Origin: Acidobacteriota bacterium
GTDB taxonomy: Bacteria > Acidobacteriota > Terriglobia > Bryobacterales > Bryobacteraceae
Assembly (NCBI GenBank): GCA_016213725.1
Contig: JACQZS010000197.1
Span: 1-50,650, forward strand
Reading direction: 5' to 3'
DNA length: 50,650 nucleotides
Below, one piece after another: positions 11,828 to 16,446 of this stretch. The translations under genes and the position numbers were made by a program. The stretch's first letter is position 1, and every line of letters starts with the position of its first letter. A model generated the notes under the pieces. The model was not told where the DNA came from. It ran no database searches and worked only from the letters and a program-made list of their open reading frames with translations.

Positions 11828-12184
11828 TCACTTCCTCAGAATCTTCTCCATCGCCTTCCCCTTGGCCAATTCATCCACCAGCTTGTCCAGATAGCGGATC
11901 TGCCGCATCAGCGGATCTTCGATCTCCTCCACCCGATAACCGCAGATCAACCCTGTGATCATCGATGCATTCGGGTTCATCCGCGGCGCCTGCGCGAAGA
12001 AGTGCTCAAAATCCACCTTCTTCGCCATCACTTCCTGCAGCGCCTTCTCGTCGTAGCCCGTCAGCCACTCGATGATGGCGTGGACCTCCGCCTTCGTCCG
12101 CCCCTTCTTTTCCGCCTTGGCGATGTAGTGCGGGTACACGCCCGCAAACGGCATTCTGTAGACTCGCGTGGGATCCGTGGCCAT
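11828..12184 (-). CDS. DUF2200 family protein
   Basis: The protein has 118 residues and matches the short conserved DUF2200/COG4898 family. It opens with [19 protein letters not shown], followed by [20 protein letters not shown], then [32 protein letters not shown]. It is soluble, without a signal or membrane segment. The family has no established function that I know of. The start at 12184 gives the family's usual N-terminus; the frame extends to 12235 but that part looks untranslated. A weak GAAGAG lies upstream. It ends 34 bp before the NamZ-like gene. It is divergent from the candidate RiPP operon starting near 12434. Confidence 0.82.
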
Positions 12185-12397
12185 ATTGCTCTTCAAAGCA
12201 TAGCGAGTCCGCTCCACACCCGGACACGTCCGCACCCGCCGGCCGCAGCCGCGAGCCTCTCCATCTCCCCCCCTGTCTGATTTTCATACTTTCGCACCTT
12301 TAATAACGAATAGTTAATTCTGCTTATCTCGCATTAAGTAATTCACTCCCCAACCCTCCTCCCCGGCGCATCGGGTAAAAAATAGCAACCCCTAAGG

Positions 12398-12427
12398 TGG
12401 TCAAAAAACGGAAGTTGTCTGTATACT
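12398..12427 (+). promoter_or_regulatory. Possible sigma-70-type promoter for the candidate RiPP operon
   Basis: TGGTCA (12398-12403) and TATACT (12422-12427) are separated by 18 bp. They lie in a locally AT-rich island (about 12290-12430) that contrasts with the GC-rich surroundings. The -10 element is good, the -35 element is moderate. A transcript starting about 7 bases after the -10 would begin at or next to the ATG at 12434. Predicted by eye only. Confidence 0.35.
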
Positions 12428-12433
12428 CTTCTC

Positions 12434-12607
12434 ATGCTGGGATGCCTGGAGAAAGAACAATTTCCGGATAATTCCCCGCCCACTCTCCCTTTCAACCCGG
12501 ACACCAGTCCGCTCGAGGATGGATTGGGCACGCATGATCGGAACGCCGGGAACTTCCGCAATCCCTGGCGGCATTCACTCAGAGCAAAGGAGCGACATAA
12601 TGCCTGA
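12434..12607 (+). CDS. Possible 57-residue leader ORF overlapping the precursor start
   Basis: ATG at 12434 opens a 57-codon frame (MLGCLEKEQFPDNSPPTLPF onward) that stops at TGA 12605-12607. This overlaps the first eight bases of the precursor-like gene at 12600 (ATGCCTGA arrangement), a geometry typical of translational coupling. No Shine-Dalgarno precedes it, but the likely -10 element ends only 6 bases upstream, so it could be translated from a leaderless mRNA. The protein is polar, proline- and asparagine-rich, with a basic C-terminus and one Cys. I recognise no family. It may be chance open frame in a 5' untranslated region. Confidence 0.3.
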   Translation: MLGCLEKEQFPDNSPPTLPFNPDTSPLEDGLGTHDRNAGNFRNPWRHSLRAKERHNA

Positions 12608-13022
12608 ATCCACCCCTACCAATCAAACTAAGTATGTGCGTGTGCTGGCGTCCGATCAGGAGGCCCGCGCGAAATTCCTTGCTAACCCCGAGGCTGCGGC
12701 CAAACAGGCCGGCATCACCCTCACGCCCGATTTCTCCAAGCTCCTCAAGAGCGAGTTGGTGGCTTTGGAAAAGGACGCCATTAAGGTCAACTTCCGCAAC
12801 CCCTATATCGACATCCATAAGGTGCCGGGCTTCAAGACCACCGGCCCCGCCGGACGCCCGGGCACCGTCATGAACGCCGCCGCCGTCGCCGCCGGAGCAG
12901 CCGTCGTCTCCGCCGCGGCCGCCGTCGTCTCCGCCGTCTGCGCCACCTACCAGGCCACCAAATGGCGCGGCCCCTCCGTCATCGCCGGCCCCCAGATCCG
13001 CACTCGCGGCGGCATCCGCTAA
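12600..13022 (+). CDS. Candidate RiPP precursor with NHLP/Nif11-like leader and Ala/Val-rich C-terminus
   Basis: The protein has 140 residues. The ATG at 12600 has AAGGAG 8 bases upstream. Residues 1-60 look like an NHLP- or Nif11-type leader: polar start, then a helix EARAKFLANPEAAAKQAGIT (21-40), then LTPDFSKLLKSELVALEKDA. Residues 61-90 are a loop rich in Gly and Pro (VPGFKTTGPAGRPGTV). Residues 91-117 are almost pure Ala/Val/Ser with a single Cys (C114), and 118-140 form a basic Gly/Arg/Pro tail. A 16-bp exact repeat (12900-12915 and 12921-12936, period 21 bp) encodes a duplicated AAVVSA heptad at 100-113. It precedes radical SAM, SPASM-only and methyltransferase genes, the classic position of a modified-peptide precursor. 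There is no GG cleavage site. A membrane-associated hypothetical protein is the alternative reading. Confidence 0.6.
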   Translation: MPESTPTNQTKYVRVLASDQEARAKFLANPEAAAKQAGITLTPDFSKLLKSELVALEKDAIKVNFRNPYIDIHKVPGFKTTGPAGRPGTVMNAAAVAAGAAVVSAAAAVVSAVCATYQATKWRGPSVIAGPQIRTRGGIR

Positions 13023-13036
13023 CACTCCGTCCATCC

Positions 13037-13076
13037 ACCGCCGCGGCCGCGGAACCTACCTCCCGGCCGCGGCGGT
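13037..13076 (+). terminator. Strong GC hairpin between precursor and radical SAM gene
   Basis: A perfect 13-bp stem (ACCGCCGCGGCCG at 13037-13049 with its complement at 13064-13076) closes a 14-base loop, 15 bp after the precursor stop. No T-run follows. In peptide operons such a structure often stabilises the precursor mRNA or partly terminates transcription, so that the precursor is made in excess over the enzymes. That role here is inferred. Confidence 0.55.
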
Positions 13077-13208
13077 TCGCCCAGCCTCCGCCCGCGCGCC
13101 GCCGCAACCCGGCCCGGCCTCTCGCCCCTTCCGCCGCCCGCCGGCGCCATCTCGCCCGCCACCGTTTCGCAAAGCCCTCTTCGTCCCCCATATCACTGGA
13201 GGTTTTCC

Positions 13209-14303
13209 TTGGAATACTTGAGCCCTAATCCATCCATTTCTCAGGATGATCAATTCGACATTCTGAACGAGGCCATGCAATTGGGCTCTCTCATGCCTGT
13301 CACTTATCAAGGCCTTGTTGTCGAAAATACCTCCGCCTGCAACGCCAAATGCCGCATGTGCTACCAGGCCGCCGGCCCCACCGGCTCCGATATCCTCGGC
13401 AAGGCCTCGCTCTCGCCCGAACAGGTCGAAATCCTCCTCGCCGACGCCCTCCACATCCCCTCTCTCGCCCGCCGCTTCCACCTCGCCGGCGGCGAAGCCT
13501 TCCTCCGCCCCGCTGATTGCTTCCGCCTCTTTCGCACCGCCCGCTCCCTCGGCTACGAAGACATCACCACCACCACCAACGCCTATTGGGCCTACACCCC
13601 CAATCGCGCCGCCGCCATCTGCCAGGAGGCTCGCGACGCCGGACTCCGCCGCATGGAGATCAGTTGGGATTTCTGGCATCTCGATCACATCCGCGCCGAT
13701 TGCGTCTCCAATGCCCTCGAAGCCGGCGCCCGCTTCGGTATCTCCACCGTCCTTCGCATCCTCACCACCCAATCCCACTCCATCGCCGAAGCCCTCTCCC
13801 ATCTCCGCCCCGATGCCCTCGAACTCGCCACCGAAATCCAGTCCTGCCCCGTCTTCCCCACCGGCCGCGCCGCCTCCGAAATCCCGCCCGACGACATCTT
13901 CTACGGCCAGGACCTCGGCGGCAATTGCCACGCCATCCTCCACCTCACCGTCAACGCCCGCGGCAACGTCTACCCCTGCTGCGCCGGCGCCGACCAGACC
14001 CAGGGCCTCTCCTTCGGCAACATCCACCAGGAATCCATCCGCGACATCGCCGTCCGCATGAACTCCTCCCGCCTCCTCCGCACCCTCGTCTTCTTCGGCG
14101 TCGGCGCCCTGGAGCCCATCCTCCGCGAACACGGCGTCCAGCTCGGTGACCGCTTCAGCAACATCTGCCACCTCTGCTGGGAGATCTTCTCCCGCCCCGA
14201 ACGCGCCGCCATCGTCCACCAGTTCTTCCGCGAACAGGAGCTCCACGAAGCCCAGCGCCTCGAACAACTCCTGCCCATCCTCCAAAGCGCCCAGGAGAGC
14301 TAA
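13209..14303 (+). CDS. Radical SAM protein with SPASM-like C-terminal cluster domain
   Basis: The protein has 364 residues. C44-x3-C48-x2-C51 (SACNAKCRMC) is the radical SAM [4Fe-4S] motif and AGGEAF at 93-98 the GGE motif that contacts SAM. The C-terminal part carries further cysteines (C213, C240, C257, C258, C320, C323) in SPASM/twitch style: GNCHAILHLTVNARGNVYPCC, then NICHLC. SPASM radical SAM enzymes modify peptides, for example by thioether, C-C or epimerisation chemistry; the reaction here is unknown. The start is a TTG at 13209 supported by GGAGG 6 bases upstream; the first in-frame ATGs would cut into the N-terminus. It lies 186 bp after the precursor-like gene and 3 bp before the SPASM-only gene. 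Third codon positions are almost uniformly C. Confidence 0.88.
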   Translation: MEYLSPNPSISQDDQFDILNEAMQLGSLMPVTYQGLVVENTSACNAKCRMCYQAAGPTGSDILGKASLSPEQVEILLADALHIPSLARRFHLAGGEAFLRPADCFRLFRTARSLGYEDITTTTNAYWAYTPNRAAAICQEARDAGLRRMEISWDFWHLDHIRADCVSNALEAGARFGISTVLRILTTQSHSIAEALSHLRPDALELATEIQSCPVFPTGRAASEIPPDDIFYGQDLGGNCHAILHLTVNARGNVYPCCAGADQTQGLSFGNIHQESIRDIAVRMNSSRLLRTLVFFGVGALEPILREHGVQLGDRFSNICHLCWEIFSRPERAAIVHQFFREQELHEAQRLEQLLPILQSAQES

Positions 14304-14306
14304 TCC

Positions 14307-15191
14307 ATGACCCGGCAAGTCCTTCACCTCTTCCGCTCCGCCGTCGTCCTCTCTGACGACGCGCCCCCCGCCGCCCTCCTCGCCTGGCTGCCCCGCTGGG
14401 ACGCCCTCGTCAAGCAAAACCTCGGCATCCTCGACGGCGAAAACCTCCACGCCCTCTACGGCCGCGCCCTCACTCTTCTCGCCCCCGCCCTCCGCCCCTG
14501 CGCCGCGGAGCTCTCTGCCCTCGGCCCCCTCGCCCGCGAACTCGGCCTCTCCGTCGCCGTCAACCTCTCCCTCGCCGAAGCCCTCTCCCCCGACTTCGAT
14601 ACCCTCGCCCTCCTCGCCCGCGCCATGGTCGGCACCGTCTATCTCGACGCCCGCCAGGCCCCTCCTTCCACCCCCTCCGCCGACGTCCTCCACCTCGTCC
14701 GCGCCCTCCGCTCCGCTGGCGTCAACCCCGCCCTCGTCGGCCCCGTCGCCCGCTGGAACTCCTTCGGCCTCCTCGACGAGCCCTTCCTCAACGCCGGCAC
14801 CGTCCACTTCGCCCCCGCCGGCCGCGCCGCCCTCTCCTCCCTCCTCGCCTCCGGACCCAGCCCCTTCGAAATCCGCAACTCCTTCGACCCCTGCAAGGAA
14901 CGCCTCGCCGTCTTCGTCGCCCCCGACGGCGGCCTCTACCCCTGCCATGGCCTCGTCGGCGTCGAACCCTTCCGCATCGGCTCCCTCGACGGCGAACTCC
15001 CCCTCCACATCACCCCCCGCCAACAGGACCTCCTCTCATCCTGGTCCGCCGCCGGCCCCGGCTGCCTCGGCTGCGTCGAGCCCGACCCGGACTCCCCCCT
15101 CCCCCTCATCTGCGAACTCCACAAAGCCGAACTCCTCGCCTCTTCGCACCCCACCTCTCATGCCGGCCACCAAACCCTGCGCGCACTCTAG
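14307..15191 (+). CDS. SPASM-domain partner lacking the radical SAM cluster motif
   Basis: The protein has 294 residues. It has no CX3CX2C, so it should not bind the SAM-cleaving cluster. Its C-terminal half nevertheless copies the SPASM region of the preceding enzyme. C196-x16-C213 in the text PCKERLAVFVAPDGGLYPC matches the neighbour's C240-x16-C257 exactly, and C253-x2-C256 matches C320-x2-C323. A further Cys is at 269. The N-terminal 180 residues look like a degraded TIM-barrel (VAVNLSLAEALSPD, VRALRSAGVNPALVGPV). It probably arose by duplication and now acts as a partner, substrate-binding or electron-relay subunit; this is inference. The ATG is 3 bp after the radical SAM stop, and the end overlaps the methyltransferase gene by 32 bp. 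Confidence 0.78.
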   Translation: MTRQVLHLFRSAVVLSDDAPPAALLAWLPRWDALVKQNLGILDGENLHALYGRALTLLAPALRPCAAELSALGPLARELGLSVAVNLSLAEALSPDFDTLALLARAMVGTVYLDARQAPPSTPSADVLHLVRALRSAGVNPALVGPVARWNSFGLLDEPFLNAGTVHFAPAGRAALSSLLASGPSPFEIRNSFDPCKERLAVFVAPDGGLYPCHGLVGVEPFRIGSLDGELPLHITPRQQDLLSSWSAAGPGCLGCVEPDPDSPLPLICELHKAELLASSHPTSHAGHQTLRAL

Positions 15192-16446
15192 CCCCTCCGC
15201 CGTCCGCCGCCAGGTGGCCGACTTCTACTCGCGCTACCCCTATCCCCCGCCCGCCATCGTCACCCGCTACCAGCGCCCGGCTTTCGCCCTGGAGCGTCTC
15301 AACCTCCGCCTCGCCGCCGCCGGCCGCCCGCCTCTCCCGCCCAACCTCCGCATCTGGGCCCCCGGCGGCGGCACCACCCTCCCCGTCCAACTCGCCCTCC
15401 ACTTCCCCTCGGCCTCCATCCTCGCCACCGACATCTGCGCCCGCTCCCTCCAAATCGCCGCCAAAATCGCCCGCTCCCTCCAGCTCACCAACATCGACTT
15501 CCGCCACGAAGACCTCCTCGACAGCGCCTACCGCGGCCAGTTCCACCTCATCGATTGCGCCGGCGTCCTCAACCATGTCGCCCGCCCCGCCGACGGCTTC
15601 CGCGCCATCCGCCGCGCCCTCCATCCCTCCGGCGTCGCCAACCTCTGGGTCTACAACACCCGCCAGCGCTGGCTCAGCGACGCCTGGCAATCCGCCCTCG
15701 CCCTCCTCGGCGCCACCCAATCCGCCACCCAGACCAACGACCGCTGGACCCTCGCCCGCCACCTCGTCGACTGGGCCCGCCTCCAACCCAACTGGCGCCG
15801 CACCCGCGAAGCCCTCGGCGCCATCCATCCCTCCATCGATCCCGTCAACACCGCCGACGCCCTCATCCATCCCCGCGAAATCTCCTTCACCCTCGCCCAG
15901 CTCTGGAGCCTCCTCGCCCGCTCCGGCCTCCACTTCCTCGCCTGGCGCGAAGACCACGCCTGGGACCCTCTCAACACCCCCGGCCTCCCTGCCCCCCTGC
16001 GCGCCCGCATCGCCACTCTCCCCCCGCTCGAACGCTTCCAACTCATCGAAGCCCTGGCCGAAGAAGACGCCCCCTACTTCGACCTCTTCGCCGTCCGCGC
16101 CAACCCGCCCCATTCCCCCGCCCCCGTCCTGCCCGAAACCTGGCGCCCCGCCTTCAACCCCTCCATCGAGTTCATCAACCTCCGCGGCGCCCGCGCCGTC
16201 TCCAGCCACCACATGCCCGTCCTCCGCCGCACGGAGGACTCCTGGGCCGCCTACCAGAACGGCGACGCCCGCGAAAAGTCCGGACTCTGGCTCCCCCTCA
16301 CCCCGCCCCAGGCCCGTCTCCTCGAACAAGCCGACGGCACCCGTACAGTCCCCGAACTCCTCCGCGAACCCTCCTCCGAACCCCGCCGCGCCCTCGCCGC
16401 CTTCCTCCACCGCGCCGCCTCTTCCCCCGTAGCCCTCCTCGCCTGA
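15160..16446 (+). CDS. SAM-dependent methyltransferase with PqqD-like C-terminal domain
   Basis: The protein has 428 residues. After VADFYSRYPYPPP (19-31), a motif seen in a class of peptide- or tetrapyrrole-type methyltransferases, comes a class I Rossmann domain. Motif I is IWAPGGGTTLPVQLA (65-79), the acidic ribose-binding residue is in ILATDICARS, and HLIDCAGVLNHVARPADGF is motif IV. A helical middle region follows. The last 55 residues (LWLPLTPPQARLLEQADGTR, then TVPELL) resemble the PqqD winged helix that recognises RiPP leaders, so this could be a fused leader-binding element. The frame stays open to 14947, but upstream text is an antiframe of the previous gene. The ATG at 15160 fits best and gives a 32-bp overlap, implying translational coupling. 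The gene ends 20 bp before the convergent permease. Confidence 0.82.
   Translation: MPATKPCAHSSPSAVRRQVADFYSRYPYPPPAIVTRYQRPAFALERLNLRLAAAGRPPLPPNLRIWAPGGGTTLPVQLALHFPSASILATDICARSLQIAAKIARSLQLTNIDFRHEDLLDSAYRGQFHLIDCAGVLNHVARPADGFRAIRRALHPSGVANLWVYNTRQRWLSDAWQSALALLGATQSATQTNDRWTLARHLVDWARLQPNWRRTREALGAIHPSIDPVNTADALIHPREISFTLAQLWSLLARSGLHFLAWREDHAWDPLNTPGLPAPLRARIATLPPLERFQLIEALAEEDAPYFDLFAVRANPPHSPAPVLPETWRPAFNPSIEFINLRGARAVSSHHMPVLRRTEDSWAAYQNGDAREKSGLWLPLTPPQARLLEQADGTRTVPELLREPSSEPRRALAAFLHRAASSPVALLA

Follow-up and report, generated by a model that had tools for sequence, protein, structure and literature searches.

The window analysed here is a stretch of 50,650 nucleotides from an Acidobacteriota genome (assembly GCA_016213725.1, contig JACQZS010000197.1), and it contains four adjacent genes, designated A to D, which encode a precursor-like protein, a radical S-adenosylmethionine (SAM) enzyme of the SPASM type, a SPASM-like protein without a radical SAM motif and a methyltransferase. 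These genes constitute a real operon of the type that makes ribosomally synthesized and post-translationally modified peptides (RiPPs), whose product would probably be an epimerised hydrophobic peptide, and which belongs to a small family seen in two phyla. In the reading preferred here, to which a probability of roughly 55% is assigned, B epimerises residues in the alanine- and valine-rich (A/V) core of A, C is the partner of B, and D carries out a tailoring step in this lineage only. The features of the window on which the argument depends are the following.

12398..12427, + strand: promoter-like site (TGGTCA, 18 nt, TATACT), a consensus match only, in the AT-richer stretch before the operon
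12600..13022, + strand: A, precursor-like protein of 140 aa, with an N-terminal leader-like part related, below cut-off, to the Os1348/NHLP clan
12873..12938, + strand: A/V-rich hydrophobic segment, the putative core (A residues 92-113), shared with the Tropicibacter protein QF118_RS19540
13037..13076, + strand: strong hairpin between A and B (-35 kcal/mol, z -4.97)
13209..14303, + strand: B, radical SAM/SPASM enzyme of 364 aa, a YydG/EpeE relative, with a TTG start behind GGAGG
13338..13361, + strand: CNAKCRMC, radical SAM cluster motif of B (C44, C48, C51), invariant in four close rows
13977..13982, + strand: C257-C258 of B; C258 is aligned with the catalytic hydrogen-donor Cys223 of YydG
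14307..15191, + strand: C, SPASM-like protein of 294 aa without a radical SAM motif
15160..16446, + strand: D, class I SAM-dependent methyltransferase of 428 aa with an extra C-terminal region

The four open reading frames (ORFs) all lie on the forward strand in the order A to D and span 12600-16446, with a gap of 3 nt between B and C and with the start of D overlapping C. A first-pass annotation made from the letters of the window had described four genes in tight order on one strand and had interpreted them as a candidate RiPP cluster; the ORF coordinates confirm the gene set, and the interpretation is partly supported, in that the precursor and the modifying genes recur together on a second acidobacterial contig and, as A, B and C, on an alphaproteobacterial plasmid.

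Enzyme B and the recurrence of the gene set

B matches the Pfam Radical_SAM and SPASM models above their cut-offs and carries the CNAKCRMC motif, which bears out its initial description as a radical SAM/SPASM enzyme. Its best NCBIfam match is TIGR04078 (YydG peptide epimerase), and its best match among solved structures is YydG itself (PDB 8ai1-6), with an E value of 3e-15 for the single sequence and 5e-23 for a four-row profile, in an alignment that covers 307 chain residues. All eight cysteines that were compared are cysteine in both B and Macrococcus YydG. In an alignment of 16 YydG-like rows (eight matches of the B profile in the phylum, window included, one family-level match, six rows from plasmids, and one from the Paludibaculum contig L004 described below), C44, C48, C51, C240, C257, C320 and C323 are cysteine in every row and C258 in 15 of 16; the counts for C44, C48 and C51 are in part a product of selection, because three of the rows were chosen as frames bearing CX3CX2C. 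The proteins of loci L005 and L006, which are other radical SAM proteins, and the plasmid matches H3 and H6 were left out of this alignment.

The cysteine of greatest mechanistic interest is C258, the second Cys of a PCC sequence, which aligns with position 248 of the YydG structure chain; this position is Cys223 if the chain has 25 extra N-terminal residues, an offset deduced from the numbering of Macrococcus YydG together with the structure alignment. According to the available portions of the epipeptide literature, Cys223 is the catalytic hydrogen donor of YydG, and the target residues in epipeptides are Val and Ile, which are hydrophobic (PMC5682303, PMC8326336). With that offset, B has a cysteine at the donor position expected of an epipeptide epimerase. 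It is proposed that a recognition region in the N-terminal part of A (approximately residues 1-84) would direct modification of the C-terminal hydrophobic segment, that the radical SAM cluster of B would take an alpha hydrogen from residues of the A/V segment, most likely Val or Ala, and that Cys258 would return a hydrogen from the other face, so that L residues would become D residues, as YydG/EpeE does on its own peptide.

All four genes and both of their flanking genes are also present on L004, a contig of a Paludibaculum metagenome-assembled genome (Acidobacteriota), which, judged by length and coordinates, is the same contig as one found in a genome of the window's genus (G125:C261) and is counted once. 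Amino-acid identities between the window and L004 are 96% for A, 94% for B, 89% for C and 85-86% for D, and the corresponding ratios of nonsynonymous to synonymous substitution (dN/dS) are 0.073, 0.163, 0.407 and 0.331. In A residues 85-140 dN is 0 and dS is 0.238, with 10 nucleotide differences. On the strength of these ratios, from one genome pair, A to D look like protein genes under purifying selection rather than chance ORFs.

A second phylum enters through plasmids. Seven plasmid records contain a B relative, and among the five that were fetched (H1, H2, H4, H5, H7) the closest by far is NZ_CP124618.1 of Tropicibacter oceani (Alphaproteobacteria; now listed as Pacificoceanicola oceani), where the locus is as follows.

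NZ_CP124618.1 22900-33028 (L021:8901-19029): Tropicibacter locus with two B+C pairs and two A relatives

The two B relatives are 51% and 49% identical to the window B, and each overlaps its C relative by 4 nt; the C relatives show identities of 31% and 32%, with BLASTP E values of 4e-24 and 1e-23. The A relative QF118_RS19540 (193 aa, hereafter 19540), which has no Cys and no Trp, lies upstream of the first pair, and QF118_RS19505 (276 aa, hereafter 19505), whose sequence continues after the A/V segment, is beside the second pair and convergent with it. The locus is thus like the window in its B+C pairs and A relatives, but in place of D it has an APH-type protein, a second radical SAM enzyme and two peptidases, one trypsin-like and one of M23 type. 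The second radical SAM enzyme is near TIGR03913 and TIGR04103, below the cut-offs of both (TIGR03913 430.9 bits against 591.75). The annotation of the record gives radical SAM, phosphotransferase, peptidase and hypothetical genes and does not name a RiPP locus.

The genes A, B and C therefore recur together in the window, L004 and Tropicibacter, and this co-location of a precursor gene with modifying-enzyme genes across lineages is what is generally expected of a RiPP system. C directly follows B in the window, in L004 and in both Tropicibacter pairs (four of four close B loci), and C as a query of genus, phylum and plasmid sequences led to three genomes or records, each with B beside C. Likewise, all four members of the A family (window, L004, two in Tropicibacter) are in a locus with B and C, so that the outcome named beforehand as evidence against a RiPP, precursor homologues mostly without radical SAM genes, was not realised; this is a weak test, and the co-occurrence is partly due to the way of searching, since it was B that initially led to the three other members.

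Within the sequences searched the set is rare, and it is not general in acidobacteria. Counting the window's own genome throughout, C was found in 2 of 9 genomes of the genus and, at E 1e-5, in 1 of 396 of the phylum (the window's own); D, at E 1e-30, in 1 of 297 phylum genomes (again its own); B, at E 1e-20, in 2 of 121 family genomes; and the B profile, at E 1e-12, in 7 of 396 phylum genomes. The question of whether the four genes co-occur in other acidobacteria, which the first-pass annotation had posed as a check, is answered positively for L004 but not for the phylum at large. C matched 1 of 72,556 plasmid records. At E 1e-3, neither 12 loci with a more distant B-type gene (L003, L018, L019, L020, L022 and L025-L031) nor L005 and L006, which carry other radical SAM genes, yielded a relative of A, C or D, although a gene farther away would be missed because most of these 14 loci reach only about 1.5 kb on each side. 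In viral contigs 26 pattern stretches for B relatives were found, none of them confirmed, and in phages there was no B relative at E 1e-5.

The precursor, the SPASM-like protein and the methyltransferase

A consists of a leader-like N-terminal part (approximately residues 1-84), an Ala/Val/Gly-rich hydrophobic segment and a basic, Gly/Arg-rich end. Its residues 16-51 match the Os1348 family model NF038399 at 30.4 bits (E 3e-7; cut-off 40), and it scores 17.8 bits against the NHLP-related TIGR04509 (cut-off 34); no nitrile-hydratase-leader or Nif11 model of Pfam or NCBIfam was matched at E up to 1. The relationship to 19540 is well separated from chance, with a score of 103 compared to 66 for the best of 2000 composition-keeping shuffles, and with 79 compared to 61 for the core alone; the score between A and 19505 is 77 (shuffle best 60), and that between 19540 and 19505 is 250 (69). 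A and 19540 share AAVxAGAAVVxAAAAVVxAV as their longest conserved run, and the C-terminal pattern GPxxIxxPxxxxxGGxR comes after it. The Tropicibacter relatives were detected only through the neighbourhood of B and the shuffle test: A as a query returned nothing from the plasmids at E up to 0.01, although these relatives are among them, and 19540 as a plasmid query returned its own record only. A search of 297 phylum genomes with A yielded no clear further member, only eight weak matches (E 1.3e-4 to 0.009).

The relationship of B to YydG, the aligned Cys258 and the freedom of 19540 from Cys and Trp jointly favour epimerisation in the A/V segment, although they are not proof of it. It is unlikely, though it deserves serious consideration, that B instead performs some other radical reaction on A in the same RiPP operon, such as the formation of a thioether, of a C-C or other cross-link, or of a cyclopropane, or a desaturation, with participation of a cluster in C. 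SPASM enzymes are chemically diverse, B is far under the YydG equivalog cut-off, and the window A contains a single Cys, located where the core ends, along with one Trp and three Tyr. The absence of Cys and Trp from 19540, however, argues against a thioether or a Trp cross-link as the shared chemistry, the extra Cys258 of B matches the hydrogen donor of the epimerases, and the conserved residues of the segment are A, V and G.

A further alternative, considered improbable, is that A functions uncut, as a small protein of the membrane or a scaffold; B, C and D would then modify or assemble this protein, or have another target altogether. The A/V segment, whose 19-residue Kyte-Doolittle mean is 2.2, could be a plain transmembrane helix; 19505, at 276 aa, has sequence beyond the segment; no protease is adjacent; and Os1348, a member of the clan touched by A, was crystallised full-length as a dimer, as the accessible part of its description records (PMC7726476). 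Against this stand the leader-like N-terminus with its sub-threshold matches to RiPP families, the fact that the operon also encodes a radical SAM enzyme of peptide type, and the hairpin between A and B, which suits a precursor that is needed in excess.

C matches nothing in Pfam at E up to 1 and lacks CX3CX2C, and its SPASM-type matches are sub-threshold (TIGR04085 18.2 bits, cut-off 27). C196, C213, C269 and H272 are invariant in four C homologues and lie within the SPASM-like half. With the four-row B profile, C matched B over the SPASM stretch only (35 columns, probability 17%), and against the 16-row B-type profile it scored 166.7 over 206 columns, where the best of 200 column shuffles gave 139.5. 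When the 50 window ORFs of at least 250 aa, chance ORFs included, were compared with the B-type profile, B scored 722.6, C 164.6 and the next ORF 140.0. These comparisons support the description of C as SPASM-like. That C is a degenerate radical SAM barrel is only plausible, because its N-terminal half alone scored 131.1, not above the shuffle maximum of 139.0, and because one of the two Tropicibacter C proteins (144.3 and 131.8 singly against the profile) was, at the lower score, no better than controls. The earlier description of C as a SPASM paralogue without a radical SAM motif thus stands as to the missing motif and the SPASM-like C-terminal half, while the matches to SPASM models themselves are below threshold. 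The constant pairing of C with B suggests a complex: C would be produced together with B and probably acts as its partner, binding substrate, an iron-sulphur cluster or both. The least probable of the alternatives, that C has no role alongside B, being either a divergent enzyme in its own right or a pseudo-radical-SAM protein in decay, could draw on the missing CX3CX2C, on the highest dN/dS of the four genes (0.407) and on the N-terminal half that does not exceed its shuffles, but C is kept in all four close B loci, where it abuts or overlaps B, its Cys and His residues are invariant, and its whole-length match to B-type enzymes exceeds every shuffle.

D is a class I methyltransferase by its Pfam match, and its best match among solved structures is the protein lysine methyltransferase 8hkr (E 5e-9). 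An extra C-terminal region of about 110 residues (approximately 320-428) is not covered by two plasmid relatives; this tail had been called PqqD-like at first, but positions 16120-16443, scanned alone, matched no Pfam PqqD model at E up to 5, so that only the methyltransferase part of that assignment is supported. D would add methyl groups, in this lineage only. The predicted end product is a leader-free, partly D-configured, membrane-active peptide, whose processing and export proteins would be encoded elsewhere in the genome.

Comparison with known RiPP classes

As far as sequence can indicate, the operon works like an epipeptide system, but it does not show every epipeptide feature that was tested, and those tested for proteusins, sactipeptides and the Os1348 family are lacking. 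Epipeptide loci (YydF/EpeX with YydG/EpeE), as described in the available text of PMC5682303 and PMC8326336, likewise encode, beside the precursor gene, a radical SAM enzyme that has a Cys hydrogen donor and, in its C-terminal part, a second cluster. Unlike them, A has a long leader and 140 aa where an epipeptide precursor has about 50 aa (the Macrococcus YydF-family gene is 156 nt), the window operon has the partner C and the methyltransferase D, the adjacent peptidase and ATP-binding cassette (ABC) transporter of Macrococcus have no counterpart between the flanking genes of the window, and B is below the TIGR04078 cut-off.

Proteusins with PoyD-type epimerases resemble the system in their long leader, hydrophobic core and radical SAM epimerisation, which is a putative activity here, but A matches neither the nitrile-hydratase-leader nor the Nif11 models that would mark a proteusin leader. 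PoyD-type enzymes have the radical SAM cluster only, together with a C-terminal RiPP recognition element (RRE), and no significant homology to EpeE, according to the portion of PMC8326336 that was available; B has a SPASM match and the YydG-type cysteines, and no search was aimed at RRE models. Sactipeptides and ranthipeptides have conserved donor cysteines in the core, of which the window A has one and 19540 none. The Os1348 family shares with A the domain model matched by residues 16-51, at a score short of its membership cut-off; the main text of the paper on Os1348, as far as it was available, nowhere uses the words “radical SAM” (PMC7726476). The first-pass annotation held that the gene set matches no RiPP class that can be named. 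This remains correct in that the features tested for each class are not all present, but the likely chemistry can be named, because B is a sequence relative of YydG/EpeE.

Besides the search bias noted above, several results weigh against the preferred reading of the operon. B reaches 90.5 bits against the TIGR04078 equivalog cut-off of 300 and is about 21% identical to Macrococcus YydG, a distance from YydG at which the reaction could have changed. A falls short of the cut-off for each leader family that it touches, and its leader alone scores 57 against 19540 by a slim margin over the shuffle best of 54. No relative of D is present in the Tropicibacter loci. The AlphaFold models of C (window and L004 rows) and D are useless, with a mean predicted local distance difference test score (pLDDT) of 36.7 and 34.3, respectively. 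In agreement with the earlier annotation, the interval bounded by the flanking DUF2200 and permease genes showed no gene for a peptidase or an exporter (ORF list, Pfam and NCBIfam scans); the one C39-peptidase match in the genome, which is 88.8% complete, is a transporter-like ORF beside an HlyD-type ORF on another contig, and both are below their NCBIfam cut-offs (72.9 against 853.3 bits and 74.8 against 208.65 bits).

A bolder formulation is offered tentatively: that the operon represents a new RiPP family in which a YydG-type radical SAM epimerase and a dedicated SPASM-like partner without a radical SAM motif act on an Ala/Val segment of unusually high conservation, which follows a long leader of Os1348/NHLP type, to give a D,L membrane peptide. 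On this view the family would have passed between Acidobacteriota and Alphaproteobacteria while its tailoring enzymes were exchanged: the acidobacterial version has a methyltransferase, the alphaproteobacterial one an APH-type protein together with another radical SAM enzyme. Epipeptide-type chemistry is named only from Firmicutes in the portions of PMC5682303 and PMC8326336 that were available. If the present reading is true, that chemistry extends to acidobacteria and to alphaproteobacteria of the sea, where the precursors are much longer and a SPASM-like partner is added; the partner would allow a direct test of what auxiliary clusters do in radical SAM epimerases, and an Ala/Val peptide of D,L configuration would be a candidate for membrane activity. 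Among the literature matches listed (titles and abstract beginnings) there was no published description of this gene set, which does not prove its absence from print.

Upstream region, flanking genes and other loci

The AT-rich promoter island that had been reported ahead of A is supported. GC content is 0.548 in 12000-12499, compared to 0.638-0.682 in the two bins on either side; three promoter-like sites occur, both strands together, where 0.3 are expected in shuffles of 12200-13250; and the TATACT of the site at 12398-12427 is conserved in L004, along with much of the sequence from about 12370 to the start codon of A, and the roughly 200 nt that immediately precede A are mostly conserved there too. 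The corresponding gaps between A and B also contain hairpins in L004 (z -2.39) and Tropicibacter (z -5.14), and the hairpin is a possible attenuator that would lower expression of the enzyme genes relative to that of the precursor. A fourth folded stretch, L021:10700-10830 (z -2.01), is the end of a C gene rather than an A-B gap and was excluded.

On the left the operon is flanked by a DUF2200 gene and a NamZ-type gene on the opposite strand, and on the right by a MacB/FtsX-type permease gene that is convergent to it; the earlier description of the permease as convergent and separately regulated is upheld as to its orientation. In another genome (G047, L044:3876-5025) homologues of both flanking genes are about 1.4 kb apart, in a relative orientation unlike that of the window, with none of A to D between them; sigma- and anti-sigma-like ORFs (labelled by eye) are found at the place of A to D. 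This comparison says little about the insertion site.

Several of the loci examined contain YydG-like genes in settings of their own. On the haloarchaeal plasmid NZ_CP096021.1 of Halocatena salina (L020:4410-6011) the gene for a YydG-like radical SAM protein (115.2 bits against the TIGR04078 cut-off of 300) immediately follows that for a 177-aa protein whose end is rich in V and A, so that an epimerised peptide in an archaeon is possible; homology of the 177-aa protein to A is not supported, with 5 of 2000 shuffles as good or better. In a genome of the window's family (G012, L003:29-2818) a pair of radical-SAM-like genes, the first labelled by eye and one of the two YydG-like, precedes a gene for a 94-aa protein with a weak NHLP-related match (TIGR04509 17.6 bits, cut-off 34); the small L003 protein has no similarity to the A leader beyond chance (377 of 2000 shuffles). 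On the Allochromatium tepidum plasmid NZ_AP024564.1 (L018:1-6890) a YydG-like gene lies between type III-B CRISPR genes and an EcsC-family gene, and in G476 (L026:1498-2862) a YydG-like radical SAM gene is beside a gene for a 99-aa protein that is PqqD-like by eye only.

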